Positions 19,808 through 27,604 of a DNA stretch of 28,680 bases are shown here, piece by piece; positions within the stretch are counted from its first letter, which is position 1, and each line of letters starts with the position of its first letter. Source of the DNA: a virus; the IMG/VR virus record IMGVR_UViG_3300023172_000138, positions 1-28,680 of that record. One strand, 5' to 3'. The notes under the pieces are model-generated. The model saw nothing but the letters and a program-made list of their open reading frames with translations, was not told where the DNA came from and searched no databases. A program made the translations under genes and the position numbers.

Positions 19808-21156
19808 TGGCTAATCAAGTTCATGTTGGACAACTTAGTATCACATCACCATCTGGAATAACTTTTAACTCTACAGATGGTGGTAGAGATTTACAAATAC
19901 AAGGTTCTATTGGTGGTACTGCTGTAACTATGGACCACATTAAATACATAAGAGATGAATTAGTTTCACTCGCAGCATATGGTTTGGTTGTTCCATTCAG
20001 ATATGATGGGGATAGTTCTTATGATGGATATGTAAGAGTTCAAAGTAGTTCAATTAATACAACTAGATATACCTTGGGTGGTTTTAAATACAATATACAA
20101 TTTGAATATTTAGGAAGAAGTGGTGAAATACAGTTTGAATCAAGATTTACAGGTGCAGTATTAGATAATGACCATAGTGTCAGCTCAACAACAAATCAAT
20201 TTCATTGTCCACCATCAAATCATTATAACTATTATCACGCTGGTCAACCAGTGGATGGTACTAGATTAGCTAAAGATTTAACAAGTTCCTCTACTGGTGC
20301 TACAACAACTTTAAGACTAAAGACAGATAGTAATTTAAGAGATTTTAATGCTACATACCATGTTGAACCTTCAGATTATTACAAAGGTGCTTGCAGAATA
20401 TCAACTGGTACTTATTATGATGGATTTTCAAGAAATGCAGATGGTTCAAAAACATTTGATGATACTGCTTTAGAGGTAAGATGTGGTCTGTTTTCTAAAA
20501 ATAAACCTACTGACTTAGTTTTAGAAAATGGTTTAGTAAAAATAGAATTTGAAAATTCAACTACACAAGCATTGTTTACAACTTATATATTTGATGTTTC
20601 AGACTATCAAACAAGTAAAGAATGGGCATTTAGTAGAGGTGCACCAAATGGTTCCGACCAATTAGGTGATAACTATCAAGGGTGGAGAACTATGCAAATA
20701 ATTAAAAACCATCCTGAGTGTGCTACTGTTAGGCTTACAAGTTATCTTAACTCTGATTCTAAAGATGGAAGATTAGTTGTAGATTTCACTTTAAGAAGAG
20801 GTGCTCATCATGTTTCTATCGTTGCCAATCAACATACTGCAAGTAGGTTTAATTTATCATTAGCAACAGCATCAGGAACAAATGCAAGTACTGGAACAGG
20901 TTACATTATTGATGGTAGCTCTAGTCCAGAAGATGGAAATAAATGGATATTAGGTAGTCCAGATAGTGCATCTAGTTCACTAAACTTTGATGTAGCAAGG
21001 GAAATGATGTATAAAAGTGGCTCTCAAATGAAAGCATTTATTGGATATGAATTAGCTCAAGAAGATGGTTCTATCAATGATTCAGATGACGCTGTAGATA
21101 TTAGAGACCAATACTTTGATAATGTATACGAATACCAAAAGTTGATAAAAGCATAA
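19807..21156 (+). CDS. Distal tail (Dit-like) or first minor tail protein
   Basis: The first gene after the tape measure, where siphophages encode the distal tail protein that caps the tube and holds the hub. The N-terminal ~110 residues (VHVGQLSITSPSGITFN, then RDLQIQGSIGG, LAAYGLVVPFRYDGDS and RYTLGGFKYNIQFEYLGR) fit a beta-sandwich/belt domain with the 'YxxxGxxxYxxxFEYLG' type of strand seen in minor tail proteins. Residues ~130-430 form further strands. They are rich in Thr, Ser and Asn, as expected of surface or carbohydrate-binding modules, but I do not recognise a named fold. A few scattered Cys are present without a metal-site pattern. AGGAG at 19797-19801 precedes the TAATG overlap. 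The role rests on position more than on sequence. Confidence 0.6.
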   Translation: MANQVHVGQLSITSPSGITFNSTDGGRDLQIQGSIGGTAVTMDHIKYIRDELVSLAAYGLVVPFRYDGDSSYDGYVRVQSSSINTTRYTLGGFKYNIQFEYLGRSGEIQFESRFTGAVLDNDHSVSSTTNQFHCPPSNHYNYYHAGQPVDGTRLAKDLTSSSTGATTTLRLKTDSNLRDFNATYHVEPSDYYKGACRISTGTYYDGFSRNADGSKTFDDTALEVRCGLFSKNKPTDLVLENGLVKIEFENSTTQALFTTYIFDVSDYQTSKEWAFSRGAPNGSDQLGDNYQGWRTMQIIKNHPECATVRLTSYLNSDSKDGRLVVDFTLRRGAHHVSIVANQHTASRFNLSLATASGTNASTGTGYIIDGSSSPEDGNKWILGSPDSASSSLNFDVAREMMYKSGSQMKAFIGYELAQEDGSINDSDDAVDIRDQYFDNVYEYQKLIKA

Positions 21157-21848
21157 TGTCAGTAACAGAAAAATTAATGGCTCAAGGTAGTTTTAATCTA
21201 AGATTAGATTATAACAAAACACCTAACTCAATATTAAATACAATTGATGCATGGGACCAAATTGTAATAATTCCACAAAGAGTTGCTGAAAGCGAACTAA
21301 ATGATAGTGCTATGTTGAATAGTGCTGATTATGTAGGTGTTATAACTGGATTAGGACTTGGAGATGATTCAATTGAAATAAATGGTGCTGGTCTAGGTAC
21401 TTATTTAGGAGATGGCGATACTAGAGGTCTACCTATATCTGATAAAGGTGGCGTATCTTCAATGAGAAAATATACAAATAAATCATTAGAGTATGTGCTA
21501 GACAATTATGATGATGGAGAGCCATATGGTCTATTAAGAGATGGTTCTACAGGTGGTAAAAGAGCTATTAGAGCTGGTACAATTACAAATCCTTCAAAAG
21601 AACAAACTGACTTACTTTTAAATTTTGATGGCACAAATGGTGACAAAGCTACAACTGATGCAACTAAAAGAAAACACGATGTTGAATTTTATGGAAACGC
21701 ACAATTAAGTAGCACACAATCTAAATTTGGTGGAACAAGTCTATATTTAGATGGTCAGAGGTCTTATTTAGAAGTCGACTATTCCTATCATTTTCAATTA
21801 GAGAGTGAAGACTTTACTATTGAATGGTGGGAATATAGGGAGGCTTAA
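21156..21848 (+). CDS. Tail hub (Tal / gp37-like) N-terminal part ending in half a LamG-like domain
   Basis: A 230-residue protein. Residues 1-148 resemble the start of a siphophage tail hub protein (FNLRLDYNKTPNSILNTIDAWDQIVII, then DYVGVITGLGLGDDSIEINGAGL). Residues 151-230 are the first half of a LamG/concanavalin-like lectin domain: LLLNFDGTNGDK, VEFYGNAQLSSTQSKFGGTSLYLDG, then EDFTIEWWEYR, where the frame stops. A normal LamG domain needs about 80-100 more residues. The missing half lies in the next gene, some 425 residues in. The gene therefore looks cut by an insertion rather than complete. It starts by TAATG overlap with no clear ribosome site and ends in a TAATG overlap with the next gene. 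The two products may assemble as a split hub. Confidence 0.7.
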   Translation: MSVTEKLMAQGSFNLRLDYNKTPNSILNTIDAWDQIVIIPQRVAESELNDSAMLNSADYVGVITGLGLGDDSIEINGAGLGTYLGDGDTRGLPISDKGGVSSMRKYTNKSLEYVLDNYDDGEPYGLLRDGSTGGKRAIRAGTITNPSKEQTDLLLNFDGTNGDKATTDATKRKHDVEFYGNAQLSSTQSKFGGTSLYLDGQRSYLEVDYSYHFQLESEDFTIEWWEYREA

Positions 21849-24800
21849 TGCCACAATTTGATTTAGCAAACGCAAACTTAAGTTTAGATGGATTACAGGC
21901 TGTTAAAGACAGAATTGGATTTGTTCCTTTTGTTTATGACACAGGTTATCCAGTTAATGGTAATTATATTGATAATGACCCAGTTCCTTCAGGTTCAACA
22001 ATATATGCAGAAAGTGTTTCAGGTCGTGTTCCTTTTGACCCAGATTTTCACGATGGAGTAAGAGGTAACTTAGTTGTAGGTTATGGTCATACATACAGAA
22101 ACGAAGGTGCTATACACAGAGGTTCTGATTCTTTATTTTATGACTTTTATGGTTTATATGTAAATGATACATTTGAAATTAATACAGTAGATTACAGTTT
22201 CCCAATACAATATGGAGATATATATGCCACTACTGATAGTGGTGGTAATTGGCTTGATTCAAGTGGTACTGTTCAAACTAGGGGTATAAGAGTTTCTTAT
22301 ACAGGTGATGATAGTTCTGATAACAATATGAGATTTTCTGAGTCTATTGCTAGTACATTACTTTCAGAAGATTTAGTAGGTTACATAGCAAAAGTTAAAT
22401 CTATATTTGAAGAATATGTTGATGCTTTTCCTTATGACACAACATTAGCTCAAAAGCATTTTGATATGATGGTTCTTGTTTGTTTTCAAATTGGAAAAGA
22501 AGCATTTAGTAATAGTTATTTTGTTTATTTATATAAGCAAGTTGATGGAACAGCAGTCACAAGTTCTGCTGATTTAAGTAATTATAACGATTGTGGATAT
22601 GCACTTATGTTTCTTGGTGCAAAACCATCACCAGCCGATTATCCATCTGGAACAGACCCAAATAACTTAAAAGTAGCTTATGACCCAATACTTGTTAATG
22701 GTGTAAAAGTTACTTGGAAAACAAAAATGGTTTGGGATGACGCAATGATTAAAGCCAGACAAGCTGATATTGATGACTTACTTGGTGTTAATAGTTCTGT
22801 TAATCCAACTGCTAATCCTCTTGACCCTAGAACAAATTCACAATGGTATCAAGGACCACCTATTATTGAAGACTTCTTTATGGCTAGACCTAATGCACCA
22901 CAATGGGTAGATATTATAACTTCTTCCATGCCTGCTGGTTCAGTTAGTAACACATTATTAGAATTAATAAGATTAGGTAGAGAAGATGAAATACCACTTT
23001 ATTATACAGGAGATGCTTCTATATACGACACAGACCCTGGTAATGCTAATTATTGGGAAGAAGACCCTTTATATCAAAAATACTATTCTTTAGTATGGCA
23101 AATACATAATAGATGGTATAAGGGTAACCAAACATACCTTAATATCAGACCTTCAACTACTAATGGACCTGCAATAGCTGCTCAGGGTGATGGCTCTGTT
23201 CCACCATATATATTAGGACTGGATAATGGTTCAGGTGAATTACAAGTATGGATGACCAGCAATTATGCAGAAAGTACAATTGATGGTATTACAGGAATTG
23301 ATAGCACTATATGGGATATTGCAGAGGGTAAGAAACTAGGGGATAGACAAAATGGTCAATGGGTACATAGAGCTATTACAAGAAAAGGTAATAAATTTAC
23401 TACTTGGGAAAATGGAACAAAAGTAACTGAGTGGAACTCTGATAAGAATATTAAAAGAACTACTAGAGATGCTAAAACTGGTGGCGACCAAAGAGCATCT
23501 TTAAACTTATCAATTGGGAGAAGCCAACAGGCAGATTATTTTAAAGGTTATATTGATGGATTAAAATTTACAAAAGGTGAAGCATTATATACAGCAAACT
23601 TTACACCATCAACATCTGCTCCAGATATAGACCAAACTGTAAACAATTACACAGGCAATCATAACTTAGAAAGTGCATACGCTGCAATTAAAAAAGTTAT
23701 GTCCGAAATGGAAACAGAATACAGAATTAATACAAATGGTACATTAGATGCAGGTTCACCAGAAGATATATTTGTAGGACATGGAGATGAAGTTCCTACT
23801 GCAATAATTGTTAGAGATAGCTCTGGAGAAGACCCTGGAATAGTTGGTTTAAATCCAGATGCTTTAACTACACAGTTTGAAGCAGAAGACTGGGTTGCTG
23901 GTGTAGAGTATGTAGAAAATGTAGGTTCAGATGGAGACAACATTGACCTTATTGAAAGATTTTTAACTGATGTTCCTTACTATGACTTATTTGGAAATCC
24001 ATTAGAGAGAGTTGCTTATGTTAGTGAAAGTGAAGTATCTAGTAACTTAGCACCTAAAAGAGCAGCAGCTTTCTTAGATGAATTTACAAGAATAAAAAAA
24101 TCACTATCACTATCTCTTGAGTATTACGATGTAAAAGGAGATTTTGAAGTTGGAGATAATATATTTGTCTACGACCCAGAAATAGGATTTGTTGATGATT
24201 TAACTAAAGCAATAGCTGATGGTAGAAGTGCACCATATGAACAAATATGGCAAGGTAATTATATCAATCCAGAAAAAATTAGAATTGTAGGAATTACATA
24301 TCCTATAGAAGAGACTTTTGGTGTTTACTTGAGAAAAGTTGTTTCTACAAGTCCATATGCAGTTAAATACTATGACTTAAATGATTATGTTGTTTGGGAA
24401 AGTGGTAATACTCAATTAGAAGTTGGTGAGATTGGTAAACAGATTGGCGATGACTTAAGATTTTCTTCTCAAATATCAGGTGCTGCTACAGGTGATAAGT
24501 TATACAAACCAAACAAAGTATTAGACCCTGATGACCCAGATAATGAAGGTATTAGGTTAACTACTGGTTTTGAAACTGATGCTTTAGGTACACAAAGGTC
24601 AATAATATTTGTTGAGTGGTTAGTTCCTAGAAATAGTGATGGAACATTAATAACCAATGGTCTACAATACGAAATTACAGTTCAACCAGTAAATCCTGCA
24701 CTAGGTGGTACTGAACATTATTTTATTAATTGGGGAAATACAACATTTACTATTCAAGATTTATTACAAGCTACAGATTATAAAGTTGGTGTACAAGCAA

Positions 24801-25858
24801 TTACTACAGGTTCTGCTAGTGGGTTTGTATACGAAACTATTACTTCAGCAGTTGATACTGGAACACCACCTACCCCTGCTGAAGCAACAACTTTAGCAAC
24901 TATTGTTGGTGCAGTACAAGTTATTCATAGATTAGGTGCTGCTACTGATGCACAAGGTAATCCACTTGGAACAATTACAGACTTTTCATTACCATCAGAT
25001 TTGTCACATTTAAATGTTTATGGCTCTACTACTTCTGGGTTTACTGTTGGAGAAAGTTCTTTAATAGGAAAAGTACCAGCAGATGCTTCAATGCTTAGAT
25101 TAGGAATACCTGCTGTTACTACACTTAAAGGAGAAAGTTTAGATAGTGCAGATACTATGTATTTTAGATTTACTGCTGTTGATTTAGCTGGTAATGAATC
25201 TTCTGCTTCTCCAGAGCAACAAAAAAGTGCTGCCCTAGTTGCAACAGCTAATATTGATGATGCCGCTATTACAACTGCAAAAATTAGAAATCTAGCAGTT
25301 GATACTGCAAAAATAGCTGATGCTGCAATCGTAAATGCAAAAATAGGAAACATAATAGAATCAGATAACTATTCTTCTGGCAGTTCTGGTTGGACAATTA
25401 GAAAACAAGATACTGGTTATCCAAATGGTTATGCAGAATTTAATGATGCAGTATTTAGAGGTAATGTAACAGCTACAACTGGAAATATTGGTGGTTGGAC
25501 AATTGAAAGTGATAAGTTGTCAGCAGATGATGGTGAATCAAACTCTATGGAAATAGATGGTGCTAATGCTTACATTCAAGCAAATTATACAGCTGGTAGT
25601 GCAGGTTTTAAACTAAATGCAGATGGTTCAGTAGAGTTTAATGATGGAACATTTAGAGGTGACTTATCAGCAGGTACAATAAGTATTGGTTCTGGTAATA
25701 CAGTATTTAATGTAGATGCTAATGGTAACTTATGGCTAGGACATGCCATTCAAGGCAACGCACCATTTACAGTTTCAAATTCTGGTGTACTAACAGCTAG
25801 TGGTGCTACAATTGCTGGTACAATGACAATAAATGCAGGCTCGGTACATATAGGATAA
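21848..25858 (+). CDS. Tail hub C-terminal part: lysozyme-like segment, second half of LamG domain, hub, FN3-like and fibre-repeat regions
   Basis: A 1336-residue mosaic, read in order. Residues ~12-260 recall a phage (T4-type, GH24) lysozyme fold: LDGLQAVKDRIGFVPFVYD, VVGYGHTY (76-83), and helices with AQKHFDMMVLVCFQIGKEAF (201-220). The position of the catalytic Glu is Ile23, so activity is doubtful. Residues ~260-425 are unrecognised. Residues ~427-590 complete the LamG domain begun in the previous gene (GQWVHRAITRKGNKFTTWENG, GYIDGLKFTKGEALYTANFTP). Residues ~600-830 continue the hub (AIKKVMSEMETEYRINTNG, LSLEYYDVKGDFEVGDNIFVY). Residues ~900-1130 look like two FN3-like domains. Residues ~1135-1336 hold 'TAKI' repeats and EFND.FRG fibre repeats. 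AGGGAGG precedes ATG. A single in-frame stop separates it from the next gene. Confidence 0.8.
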   Translation: MPQFDLANANLSLDGLQAVKDRIGFVPFVYDTGYPVNGNYIDNDPVPSGSTIYAESVSGRVPFDPDFHDGVRGNLVVGYGHTYRNEGAIHRGSDSLFYDFYGLYVNDTFEINTVDYSFPIQYGDIYATTDSGGNWLDSSGTVQTRGIRVSYTGDDSSDNNMRFSESIASTLLSEDLVGYIAKVKSIFEEYVDAFPYDTTLAQKHFDMMVLVCFQIGKEAFSNSYFVYLYKQVDGTAVTSSADLSNYNDCGYALMFLGAKPSPADYPSGTDPNNLKVAYDPILVNGVKVTWKTKMVWDDAMIKARQADIDDLLGVNSSVNPTANPLDPRTNSQWYQGPPIIEDFFMARPNAPQWVDIITSSMPAGSVSNTLLELIRLGREDEIPLYYTGDASIYDTDPGNANYWEEDPLYQKYYSLVWQIHNRWYKGNQTYLNIRPSTTNGPAIAAQGDGSVPPYILGLDNGSGELQVWMTSNYAESTIDGITGIDSTIWDIAEGKKLGDRQNGQWVHRAITRKGNKFTTWENGTKVTEWNSDKNIKRTTRDAKTGGDQRASLNLSIGRSQQADYFKGYIDGLKFTKGEALYTANFTPSTSAPDIDQTVNNYTGNHNLESAYAAIKKVMSEMETEYRINTNGTLDAGSPEDIFVGHGDEVPTAIIVRDSSGEDPGIVGLNPDALTTQFEAEDWVAGVEYVENVGSDGDNIDLIERFLTDVPYYDLFGNPLERVAYVSESEVSSNLAPKRAAAFLDEFTRIKKSLSLSLEYYDVKGDFEVGDNIFVYDPEIGFVDDLTKAIADGRSAPYEQIWQGNYINPEKIRIVGITYPIEETFGVYLRKVVSTSPYAVKYYDLNDYVVWESGNTQLEVGEIGKQIGDDLRFSSQISGAATGDKLYKPNKVLDPDDPDNEGIRLTTGFETDALGTQRSIIFVEWLVPRNSDGTLITNGLQYEITVQPVNPALGGTEHYFINWGNTTFTIQDLLQATDYKVGVQAITTGSASGFVYETITSAVDTGTPPTPAEATTLATIVGAVQVIHRLGAATDAQGNPLGTITDFSLPSDLSHLNVYGSTTSGFTVGESSLIGKVPADASMLRLGIPAVTTLKGESLDSADTMYFRFTAVDLAGNESSASPEQQKSAALVATANIDDAAITTAKIRNLAVDTAKIADAAIVNAKIGNIIESDNYSSGSSGWTIRKQDTGYPNGYAEFNDAVFRGNVTATTGNIGGWTIESDKLSADDGESNSMEIDGANAYIQANYTAGSAGFKLNADGSVEFNDGTFRGDLSAGTISIGSGNTVFNVDANGNLWLGHAIQGNAPFTVSNSGVLTASGATIAGTMTINAGSVHIG

Positions 25859-26180
25859 TTTATGGCAATACATATAGATACAGATGGTAATTTTTGGTTT
25901 GGTCAAACAGGAACAGAAGAATTAGATGAAATAAGCTATACACCTGTATTTTCTGTAACTAATGAGGGTGTATTAACAGCAACTTCAGGAACTGTAGGTG
26001 GTTGGACATTAGGTTCTGATTATCTGAGAGCTGAAAATAGTAGTAATCAATATATATATTTAAATGCTGATGGAAGTATTGCAGGAAATTTTATATCTGG
26101 AACTCAAGGTTGGAGAATAAATGCAAGTGGAGATGCAGAATTTAATGATGTAAAAATTAGAGGTGAACTTACTGGTGTTG
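25380..26180 (+). repeat. Fibre-type protein repeats spanning the hub/fibre gene boundary
   Basis: Degenerate coding repeats run across the stop codon at 25856. Units are EFND...RG (three copies, near 25435, 25633 and 26137), 'xxDGxLWxG' type (NVDANGNLWLG and HIDTDGNFWFG) and 'VSNxGVLTA' (FTVSNSGVLTAS and FSVTNEGVLTAT), and GGWTI/L with a following YIxLNADGS. Copies exist in both genes, so the two proteins seem to share one ancestral repeat array. Confidence 0.7.
25845..25877 (+). repeat. 9-base direct repeat flanking the hub stop and fibre start
   Basis: TACATATAG occurs at 25845-25853 and again at 25869-25877, 24 bases apart, so in the same reading frame. The stop TAA (25856-25858) and the ATG (25862) lie between the copies. 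A small in-frame duplication or slippage at the gene boundary would explain it. Confidence 0.65.
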
Positions 26181-27604
26181 AACTTAAAGGTATATTAGAT
26201 TTTGATGGTGGAACATTTAGGACTTCTGCTAATGAACCAAGAATAGAAATAACAGACAATAGTGGACGAGAAGGTGAAATAAGATACGAAACATCTAGTG
26301 GAACTGCAATGAGATTAGCAGTCGAATCTACTAGCCCAACAGACTTTTTTATAGAAAATGGTATTTTAAATGGAGATACAAGGCTTATCACATCAAGTGG
26401 TGGAACAATTAGCTTAGAAGGAGATACTTTAAATTTAAGCAATGGTGCTTCTAATAATGACCCAATATTAACATTCAATGGTATTAACGCTGCCTCAAAA
26501 ACAAGTACTACTTTAAGTAAATTACTTGGTGTAACTAGCACAGGTAGACTTGCAGTTGGTTCTGCTACTTCTGGTGTATCTAGTATTTCTGTTACTGGAG
26601 AATTACAGTTATCTGGTAGTTCAGGAGTATTAAATATAAATCATAATGACAGTGACCATGATGACCAATATTACACAAAAGCAAGCGTAAATACATTACT
26701 TTCAGGTAAAGATAATTATGGTTCATGGACTGCAAAAGCAGGTGGAAACAATATGACTGTTATAACTGGTTATGGAGTTGAGTGGAAAGCAGGTTCTGGT
26801 CTTAGTTTGTCTGTTAATACTAGCCCTTATGAAATAACATTTTCTCATGGTGCAGGAACTCATGTAAGTTCTTCTACAGCAGTACAGGCTCTTTATCCTG
26901 GTGGATTAAGAGGTAGTATTACTCTTGGTAGTGGAACTACAGGAAGATTTTACAATGGTATAGGACAAAGTGGGCAAAATTATACTTGGAACACTACAAC
27001 AACTTTTAATGGCACCCCTACATTTGGTGGAACTATATATGTTGGCTCAAGTATTTTTCATCCTTCAAGTAATGATGGTAATGGTTTTATAGGTTGGTCA
27101 GATAATAGGTTTAATAGAGTATACGCTTCAAATGGTGTATCTACTTCTTCTGATGAAAGATTAAAAAATAATATAGAAGATATTCCTTATGGATTAGATT
27201 ACTTAAATACTTTAAGACCTGTTCAATTTGAATGGATACCTAAATATAAAAACGAATGTACTATATGTGGTTGTATTGTACAAGAAGGAAATGACAATTG
27301 TGGAAATTGTTGGGAAGATGTAACAAACGAAGATGGCGAAATAATTGACAAGACTTATTGTGCATGTGAAACAATATCAATTAAAACAACAGGCGATAAA
27401 AAACTATGGGGTTTTATTGCACAAGAACTAATTGAAACACCACCAGAACCAGATATTGATATAGAGCTTATAGATTATGATAACGAAACTGATTCTTACA
27501 ATATGAATTACTCACAATTAATAGCACCATTAGTAAAAGCTGTACAAGAACTAAGCACACAGATTTTAGATTTAACTGCTAGAGTAGAAGCATTGGAGGG
27601 ATAA
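25862..27604 (+). CDS. Tail fibre / spike with C-terminal S74 intramolecular chaperone carrying a Cys-rich insert
   Basis: A 580-residue trimeric-fibre-type protein that should bind the host surface. Residues 1-110 continue the fibre repeats of the preceding gene. Residues ~110-400 are Gly/Ser/Thr-rich strands (DFDGGTFRTSANEPRIEITD and similar). The C-terminal domain is the S74 chaperone that folds the trimer and then cuts itself off. SDERLK gives the expected Ser430 and Lys435, five residues apart, and cleavage at Ser430/Asp431 would release ~150 residues. Then come LDYLNTLRPVQFEWIP, GFIAQEL and a C-terminal coiled-coil. Between FEWIPKYKN and KKLWGFIAQEL lies an insert with Cys466, 469, 471, 480, 483, 500 and 502, which looks metal-binding and is not part of the usual domain. 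The stop overlaps the next ATG. Confidence 0.85.
   Translation: MAIHIDTDGNFWFGQTGTEELDEISYTPVFSVTNEGVLTATSGTVGGWTLGSDYLRAENSSNQYIYLNADGSIAGNFISGTQGWRINASGDAEFNDVKIRGELTGVELKGILDFDGGTFRTSANEPRIEITDNSGREGEIRYETSSGTAMRLAVESTSPTDFFIENGILNGDTRLITSSGGTISLEGDTLNLSNGASNNDPILTFNGINAASKTSTTLSKLLGVTSTGRLAVGSATSGVSSISVTGELQLSGSSGVLNINHNDSDHDDQYYTKASVNTLLSGKDNYGSWTAKAGGNNMTVITGYGVEWKAGSGLSLSVNTSPYEITFSHGAGTHVSSSTAVQALYPGGLRGSITLGSGTTGRFYNGIGQSGQNYTWNTTTTFNGTPTFGGTIYVGSSIFHPSSNDGNGFIGWSDNRFNRVYASNGVSTSSDERLKNNIEDIPYGLDYLNTLRPVQFEWIPKYKNECTICGCIVQEGNDNCGNCWEDVTNEDGEIIDKTYCACETISIKTTGDKKLWGFIAQELIETPPEPDIDIELIDYDNETDSYNMNYSQLIAPLVKAVQELSTQILDLTARVEALEG

Follow-up and report, generated by a model that had tools for sequence, protein, structure and literature searches.

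Introduction

Tail-tip hubs of the gp27/pb3/J type are trimeric in known phages. Lambda distributes the HDII-insertion domain of its hub over gpL and gpJ, with the K and I genes lying between them, and in RcGTA the hub HDII insertion is divided between g13 and g15 (the megatron), with g14, a peptidoglycan peptidase, between (PMC10721106, PMC7296036). At the T4 tail tip a GH24 domain is part of gp5, a single chain that is cut after assembly (PMC3004832). Broken phage proteins can reassemble, as do the products of Aeh1 nrdA, which is interrupted by mobE, of T4 gene 60, interrupted by mobA, and of split gene 43, and a UAAUG stop/start overlap has been described for T4 nrdA/mobE (PMC2988022). Here we analyze two neighboring open reading frames (ORFs), ORF1 and ORF2, in a 28,680-nucleotide stretch of viral DNA (IMG/VR record IMGVR_UViG_3300023172_000138, positions 1 to 28,680; the window in what follows). 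It is likely that they form a two-gene tail-tip hub of a siphophage-like virus that arose by nested insertions, of a LamG domain and then of a GH24 lysozyme, with the two halves jointly building both the LamG domain and the hub.

While two-gene hubs such as those of lambda and RcGTA are known, we know of no account of the route by which they originated, and no description of a hub split inside LamG by a lysozyme was found in the open-access literature. Because plain, LamG-bearing and split hubs with both LamG and lysozyme coexist in related phages, the transition from a single gene to a pair can be traced and put to the test. The locus further offers what is, from predicted structures, likely a natural case of a β-sandwich assembled from two chains, along with a lysozyme domain that has lost its active site but has been retained within a hub gene.

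Results and Discussion

A preliminary description of the window, made from the letters alone, had proposed that a hub-like protein is split over two ORFs, the first ending midway through a LamG-like domain and the second resuming with the missing half, and this observation is confirmed, the interpretation placed on it proving largely right. PHROG LamG/baseplate profiles match ORF1 residues 149-228 (E down to 1.6e-18) and break off mid-domain. The complementary half lies in ORF2, where Laminin_G_3 matches residues 432-574 over profile positions 26-140 of 151 (Pfam, E = 1.4e-3, which alone is under the curated cut-off). In an unsplit relative, L067, the complete LamG matches Laminin_G_3 (PF13385) over positions 2-142 of 151 with E = 4.7e-18, and the two halves from the window align piecewise to this intact domain. 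Intact hubs read ...DFTIEWWEYR-TSTSGNPT..., split hubs read ...DFTIEWWEYR followed by 2-5 residues and a stop (two codons in the window), and ORF2 of the split hubs re-enters LamG at ...T(T/K)(N/H)G(P/A)... The insertion point, between EWWEYR and the ensuing T, is exact, the break matching the intact LamG residue for residue, and uncut homologues spanning it are present, as for split genes of the Aeh1 nrdA kind. The LamG of the hub is concanavalin-like and probably glycan-binding. The LamG of Marine virus AG-345-F15, considered as a relative, was rejected since it belongs to an unrelated multi-LamG protein that is not a hub.

IMG/VR was scanned for relatives of ORF1, of the insert and of the hub continuation, yielding 64 distinct hubs from uncultured phages that were classified with five profiles built for this analysis: first hub domain (D1), LamG N half, insert, LamG C half and hub continuation (HUB2). 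Three states are found. Twenty distinct hubs are split, with D1 and the LamG N half in one ORF and the insert, LamG C half and HUB2 in the other; 20 carry D1, both LamG halves and HUB2 within one ORF; and 24 are plain, with D1 and HUB2 in one ORF and no LamG. The preliminary description had suggested searching related phages for an unsplit LamG hub free of the ~1.3 kb segment, and the second state is exactly this. In plain hubs D1 adjoins HUB2 directly, so that LamG sits between two hub parts, as had been surmised. Split and insert coincide without exception (insert in 20/20 split vs 0/44 unsplit hubs). An identical break at an identical LamG residue recurs in ~20 distinct contigs while insert identity falls to ~22-40%, which argues against both chance and assembly error, and the latter was accordingly rejected as the cause of the split. 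Comparisons of the break and of catalytic residues, below, cover 22 split loci. Bacterial and archaeal genomes gave no match when searched with the hub part. In one subclade of split hubs (L028-L031, L053-L055) ORF2 is 1585-1801 residues where complete, as against 1336 in the window.

The insert comprises 436 residues (1.31 kb) at the start of ORF2, slightly more than the ~425 unrelated residues first estimated. Its relation to lysozymes, also proposed at that stage, is borderline in Pfam (Phage_lysozyme, ORF2 residues 157-237, E = 1.1e-3, slightly under cut-off) and is supported by an hhalign comparison with the Gurke phage lysozyme (E = 3.3e-8). Foldseek matches to solved GH24 muramidases are those expected of a GH24 fold, the closest being the SpmX muramidase domain (6h9d, TM 0.79), a bacterial protein and not a phage hub, followed by 7m5i (TM 0.75). 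The start of ORF2, MPQFDLANA and then LS..GL..IK..EGF, aligns with MQISPEGLKLIQSTEQF of the Gurke lysozyme; the Gurke protein begins MQISPEGLKLIQSTEQFEPEVYYC, and ORF2 of the relatives reads MPQFDLANA.LS..GL..IK..EGFVPFVYDD. ORF2 thus begins about where a free lysozyme gene begins, which fits the earlier suggestion that the insert brought its own start codon. MPQF starts ORF2 in all 22 split loci compared. In one of them, L046 (7669-7700), the ORF2 frame continues open in the upstream direction and contains an in-frame GTG 24 nt ahead of MPQF, which makes the start less certain in this case.

The catalytic motif of GH24 enzymes is Glu-x8-(Asp/Cys)-x5-Thr (PMC8228626). The E, the D (with spacing x8) and the T are kept in 12 of the 22 split loci (L051-L059, L012, L033, L037), with a long insertion between D and T, and most clades sister to that of the window retain the triad. 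We did not expect to find that the clade of the window lacks all three residues in each of its 9 loci, where I or V, T or S, and V take their places; in the window itself E is replaced by I, D by T and T by V. As read from these alignments, then, the clade keeps a GH24 fold without the known catalytic residues, and the lysozyme-like label stands for the fold and falls for the active site. L063 (7701 onwards), a split hub outside this clade, has V, D and R at the triad, only D being kept, which suggests a second, independent loss. The insert linker of L063 carries an EF-hand-like motif. Further Phage_lysozyme matches were absent from 34 of these records, which may be fragments, and no endolysin family emerged from a Pfam scan of the ORFs on the 46.5-kb contig of L009, a member of the window's clade, which may likewise be a fragment.

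In order to establish whether the two halves fold together we made use of a relative, L001, in which ORF1 and ORF2 lie in one frame with a TGA between them and can be folded by AlphaFold2 as one natural read-through chain. In the joined model the predicted local distance difference test score (pLDDT) is 80-94 over the blocks of the LamG N half (93 in the EWWEYR block) and mostly 77-96 over the C half. ORF1 alone, with matching alignment rows, gives a pLDDT of 32 in the EWWEYR block, and at the end of D1 values of 28-41 vs 59-81 in the joined model. The LamG halves are thus predicted to co-fold: that the end of ORF1 is confident only when joined to ORF2 supports one LamG built from two chains and supports, short of proof, a need of ORF1 for ORF2 to complete both LamG and hub. 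Foldseek LamG matches to the whole model span mostly ~140-200 columns, and so by themselves are no proof of a complete two-chain LamG.

Several observations weigh against an origin by nested insertion followed by joint folding. The joined model is one covalent chain with weak linkers and of modest overall confidence, its predicted TM score (pTM) being 0.43. The alignment behind it includes rows from unsplit LamG hubs, and these may favor folding of the halves together. Profile scans for a free-standing relative or ancestor of the insert returned only split hubs. Finally, the HUB2 tree places plain hubs, and not the unsplit LamG hubs, beside the split hubs (96/88). With this placement a single gain of LamG requires either a loss in the plain clade or an error in the tree; otherwise there was a second gain.

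The last of these points is what would be expected had LamG been gained twice at one hub site, with a LamG already interrupted by the lysozyme passing as a module into the split clade. We consider this unlikely. Split hubs form one clade in both hub trees (HUB2 and D1), as do the unsplit LamG hubs, but the LamGs of the two group together against other phage LamGs (97/97), the LamG site is identical to within a few residues, and the grouping of split with unsplit LamG hubs is not rejected by the approximately unbiased (AU) test (p = 0.08 for HUB2, 0.44 for D1). The nesting of the insert within LamG implies that inside the split clade LamG is the older of the two, and nesting together with the existence of an unsplit LamG clade gives the order LamG first, lysozyme second. 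The two successive insertions of the preliminary description are therefore supported in their order, with the hub trees leaving unsettled a single LamG gain accompanied by loss.

It might also be that the halves do not co-fold, in which case ORF1 would be a truncated hub piece, the LamG halves remnants, and ORF2 a lysozyme-bearing tail tip protein acting alone. LamG is, after all, a decoration wholly absent from plain hubs. This we regard as quite improbable, however, given that both halves are conserved across the deep divergence of the split hubs, with DFT.EWWEYR near-invariant, and that the ORF1 end is predicted to be unfolded alone and folded once joined.

The remaining alternatives concern expression, and here the junction proves variable. 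Among split loci the two ORFs either overlap by one base or lie 1-8 nt apart, and every possible frame of ORF2 with respect to ORF1 (0, +1, +2) occurs. Synonymous variation close to the junction is no lower than in other parts, with no unusual conservation, while constraint at the protein level holds across the insert. A low substitution rate in the last 30 ORF1 codons, seen between the window and L007, failed over more pairs.

Removal of the insert at the RNA or protein level, as a group I/II intron or an intein, with a continuous LamG hub also made, would account for the exact insertion point and for the open frame that continues from the insert into the downstream half, and phage genes do contain introns and inteins. 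Nevertheless, no Rfam intron family matches within E 2, the insert encodes a GH24 fold and not a homing or HINT domain, ORF1 stops only after 2-5 extra, variable codons, and neither the varying frame of the flanks nor the synonymous variation at the junction is as expected, making such removal very improbable. Fusion of ORF1 and ORF2 into one long lysozyme-bearing hub by programmed frameshift or stop read-through, to which the one-base overlap (-1 frame) of the window and the shared frame with a single stop in L001 and L047 might point, is extremely unlikely, since no fixed recoding event can join frames that differ among relatives, many of which have double stops such as TGATAA, and there is no conserved slippery site.

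Two polypeptides from neighboring cistrons are the simple reading. The AGGGAGG of the window lies four bases 5' of the ORF2 ATG, and coupling through TAATG, as first envisaged, may apply in the window; it is not conserved, however, as only some split members have the overlap and others have gaps with no obvious Shine-Dalgarno sequence. Members with ...CCGTGATAATATG have no strong Shine-Dalgarno site and would rely on coupling or re-initiation for translation of ORF2.

The likely course of an origin by nested insertion is as follows. A LamG domain would have inserted behind the first hub domain, ahead of the continuation, after which a gene for a GH24 lysozyme, start codon included, would have entered a LamG loop just past the EWWEYR strand. 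The lysozyme stop codon would have been lost, or never brought, so that the frame reads on into the second LamG half, and ORF1 would now stop 2-5 codons past the former LamG strand. Made side by side and partly via the stop/start overlap, both polypeptides are predicted to form one LamG and would together make up one hub subunit, with presumably 3+3 copies present at the tail tip. Where the lysozyme has its catalytic residues, as in most split relatives, it would locally open peptidoglycan during entry; the triad-less domain of the window's clade probably persists in a structural or wall-binding role.

Locus and Feature List

Coordinates are collected in Table 1. On the + strand of the window the tail module consists of a 2914-residue ORF in the tape-measure position, a 449-residue ORF in that of the distal tail gene, ORF1, ORF2 and, last, a fibre-like ORF that includes an S74 chaperone domain, so that ORF1 and ORF2 lie where a gp27/pb3/J-type hub is expected. 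The C-terminal domains of ORF2 are those of a tail-tip hub, Phage_Tail_Tip (E = 1.3e-10) and fibronectin type III (fn3). The Foldseek match to 3cdd, the MuSo2 43 kDa tail protein (prob 0.90, E = 2.4e-3), has a low TM over the long model.

Table 1. Features of the split hub locus (HMM, hidden Markov model).
Feature	Position	Strand	Basis
ORF1, N-terminal hub polypeptide (hub domain 1 + LamG N half), 230 aa	21156..21848	+	sequence, profiles
Hub domain 1 (D1), residues 1-148; also in unsplit hubs with and without LamG	21156..21599	+	own HMM
LamG N half, residues 149-230, final strand DFT[IV]EWWEYR	21600..21845	+	PHROGs, HMM, alignments
AGGGAGG Shine-Dalgarno-like sequence within ORF1 end and TAATG stop/start overlap; variable in relatives	21837..21850	+	sequence
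ORF2, insert + LamG C half + remaining hub/J-like tail tip protein, 1336 aa	21848..25858	+	sequence, Pfam
ORF2 N-terminus MPQFDLANA; MPQF and A9 invariant in 8/8 representatives compared	21848..21874	+	alignment
GH24 (T4-type) lysozyme-like domain; I/T/V in place of catalytic E/D/T in window's clade	21875..22777	+	Pfam, hhalign, Foldseek, triad alignment
Return linker of insert; conserved block YYTGDxSIYDTDPG..YW..DP.YQ..YS..WQ	22778..23155	+	alignment
LamG C half, ORF2 residues 437-600	23156..23647	+	Pfam, HMM, alignment
Hub continuation HUB2, ORF2 residues 601-872, gp27-like	23648..24463	+	HMM, Foldseek match 3cdd
Fibronectin type III domain	24593..24814	+	Pfam
Phage_Tail_Tip domain (J/tail-tip type)	25298..25486	+	Pfam

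The S74-chaperone fibre-like protein (25862-27604) contains a Cys-rich stretch, CTICGC...CGNCW...CACE, at residues ~464-510, inside or beside the chaperone domain, that weakly resembles a double zinc ribbon (Pfam). The major capsid protein (1287-2519) has at most 37% identity to phages in the collection searched, as with Manatee Spring phage and Microcystis phage Mwe-Yong1. The contig of L009 (L137-L139) has genes for a ferredoxin-like protein, a 2OG-Fe(II) oxygenase and a glycosyltransferase.

Comparison with Known Systems

Aeh1 nrdA, T4 gene 60 and gene 43 resemble the present locus in that an insertion splits a phage gene, with reassembly here predicted only. In the Aeh1 nrdA kind the insert is a homing endonuclease gene or an untranslated spacer and is unfused, whereas here it is GH24-like, a cell-wall hydrolase domain. 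T4 gp5-gp27 likewise places a GH24 lysozyme at the tail tip beside a gp27-type hub; the gp5 lysozyme, however, sits between an OB fold and a β-helix, where ours is nested in a LamG that is itself nested in the hub, and in our case the cut precedes the lysozyme and is made at the level of the gene.

Lambda and RcGTA offer further parallels, and the LamG domain, between the first hub domain and its continuation, looks as though it occupies the region matching their HDII insertion. As with gpL/gpK/gpI/gpJ, we find a two-gene hub whose halves would complete one domain, with J-like C-terminal parts including fn3. Unlike in lambda, where K and I are separate genes, the GH24 piece is joined to the N-terminal side of the second half, the split domain is LamG, and uncut relatives exist; D1 of ORF1 has no cysteines and hence no 4Fe-4S site like that of gpL. 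In RcGTA g13/g14/g15, too, a hub is split with a peptidoglycan hydrolase at the break, but in RcGTA this is a peptidase with its own gene, while the GH24 domain described here belongs to the second hub gene and is catalytically degenerate in the window's clade. One might speculate, and we do so with considerable doubt, that the two-chain LamG, its sheet coming partly from ORF1 and otherwise from ORF2, has become a working joint, with the non-covalent break and the dead lysozyme letting the hub open on host contact, and that this series of hubs replays the origin of lambda L/J and RcGTA 13/15 through the landing of a wall-hydrolase gene in a hub insertion domain.

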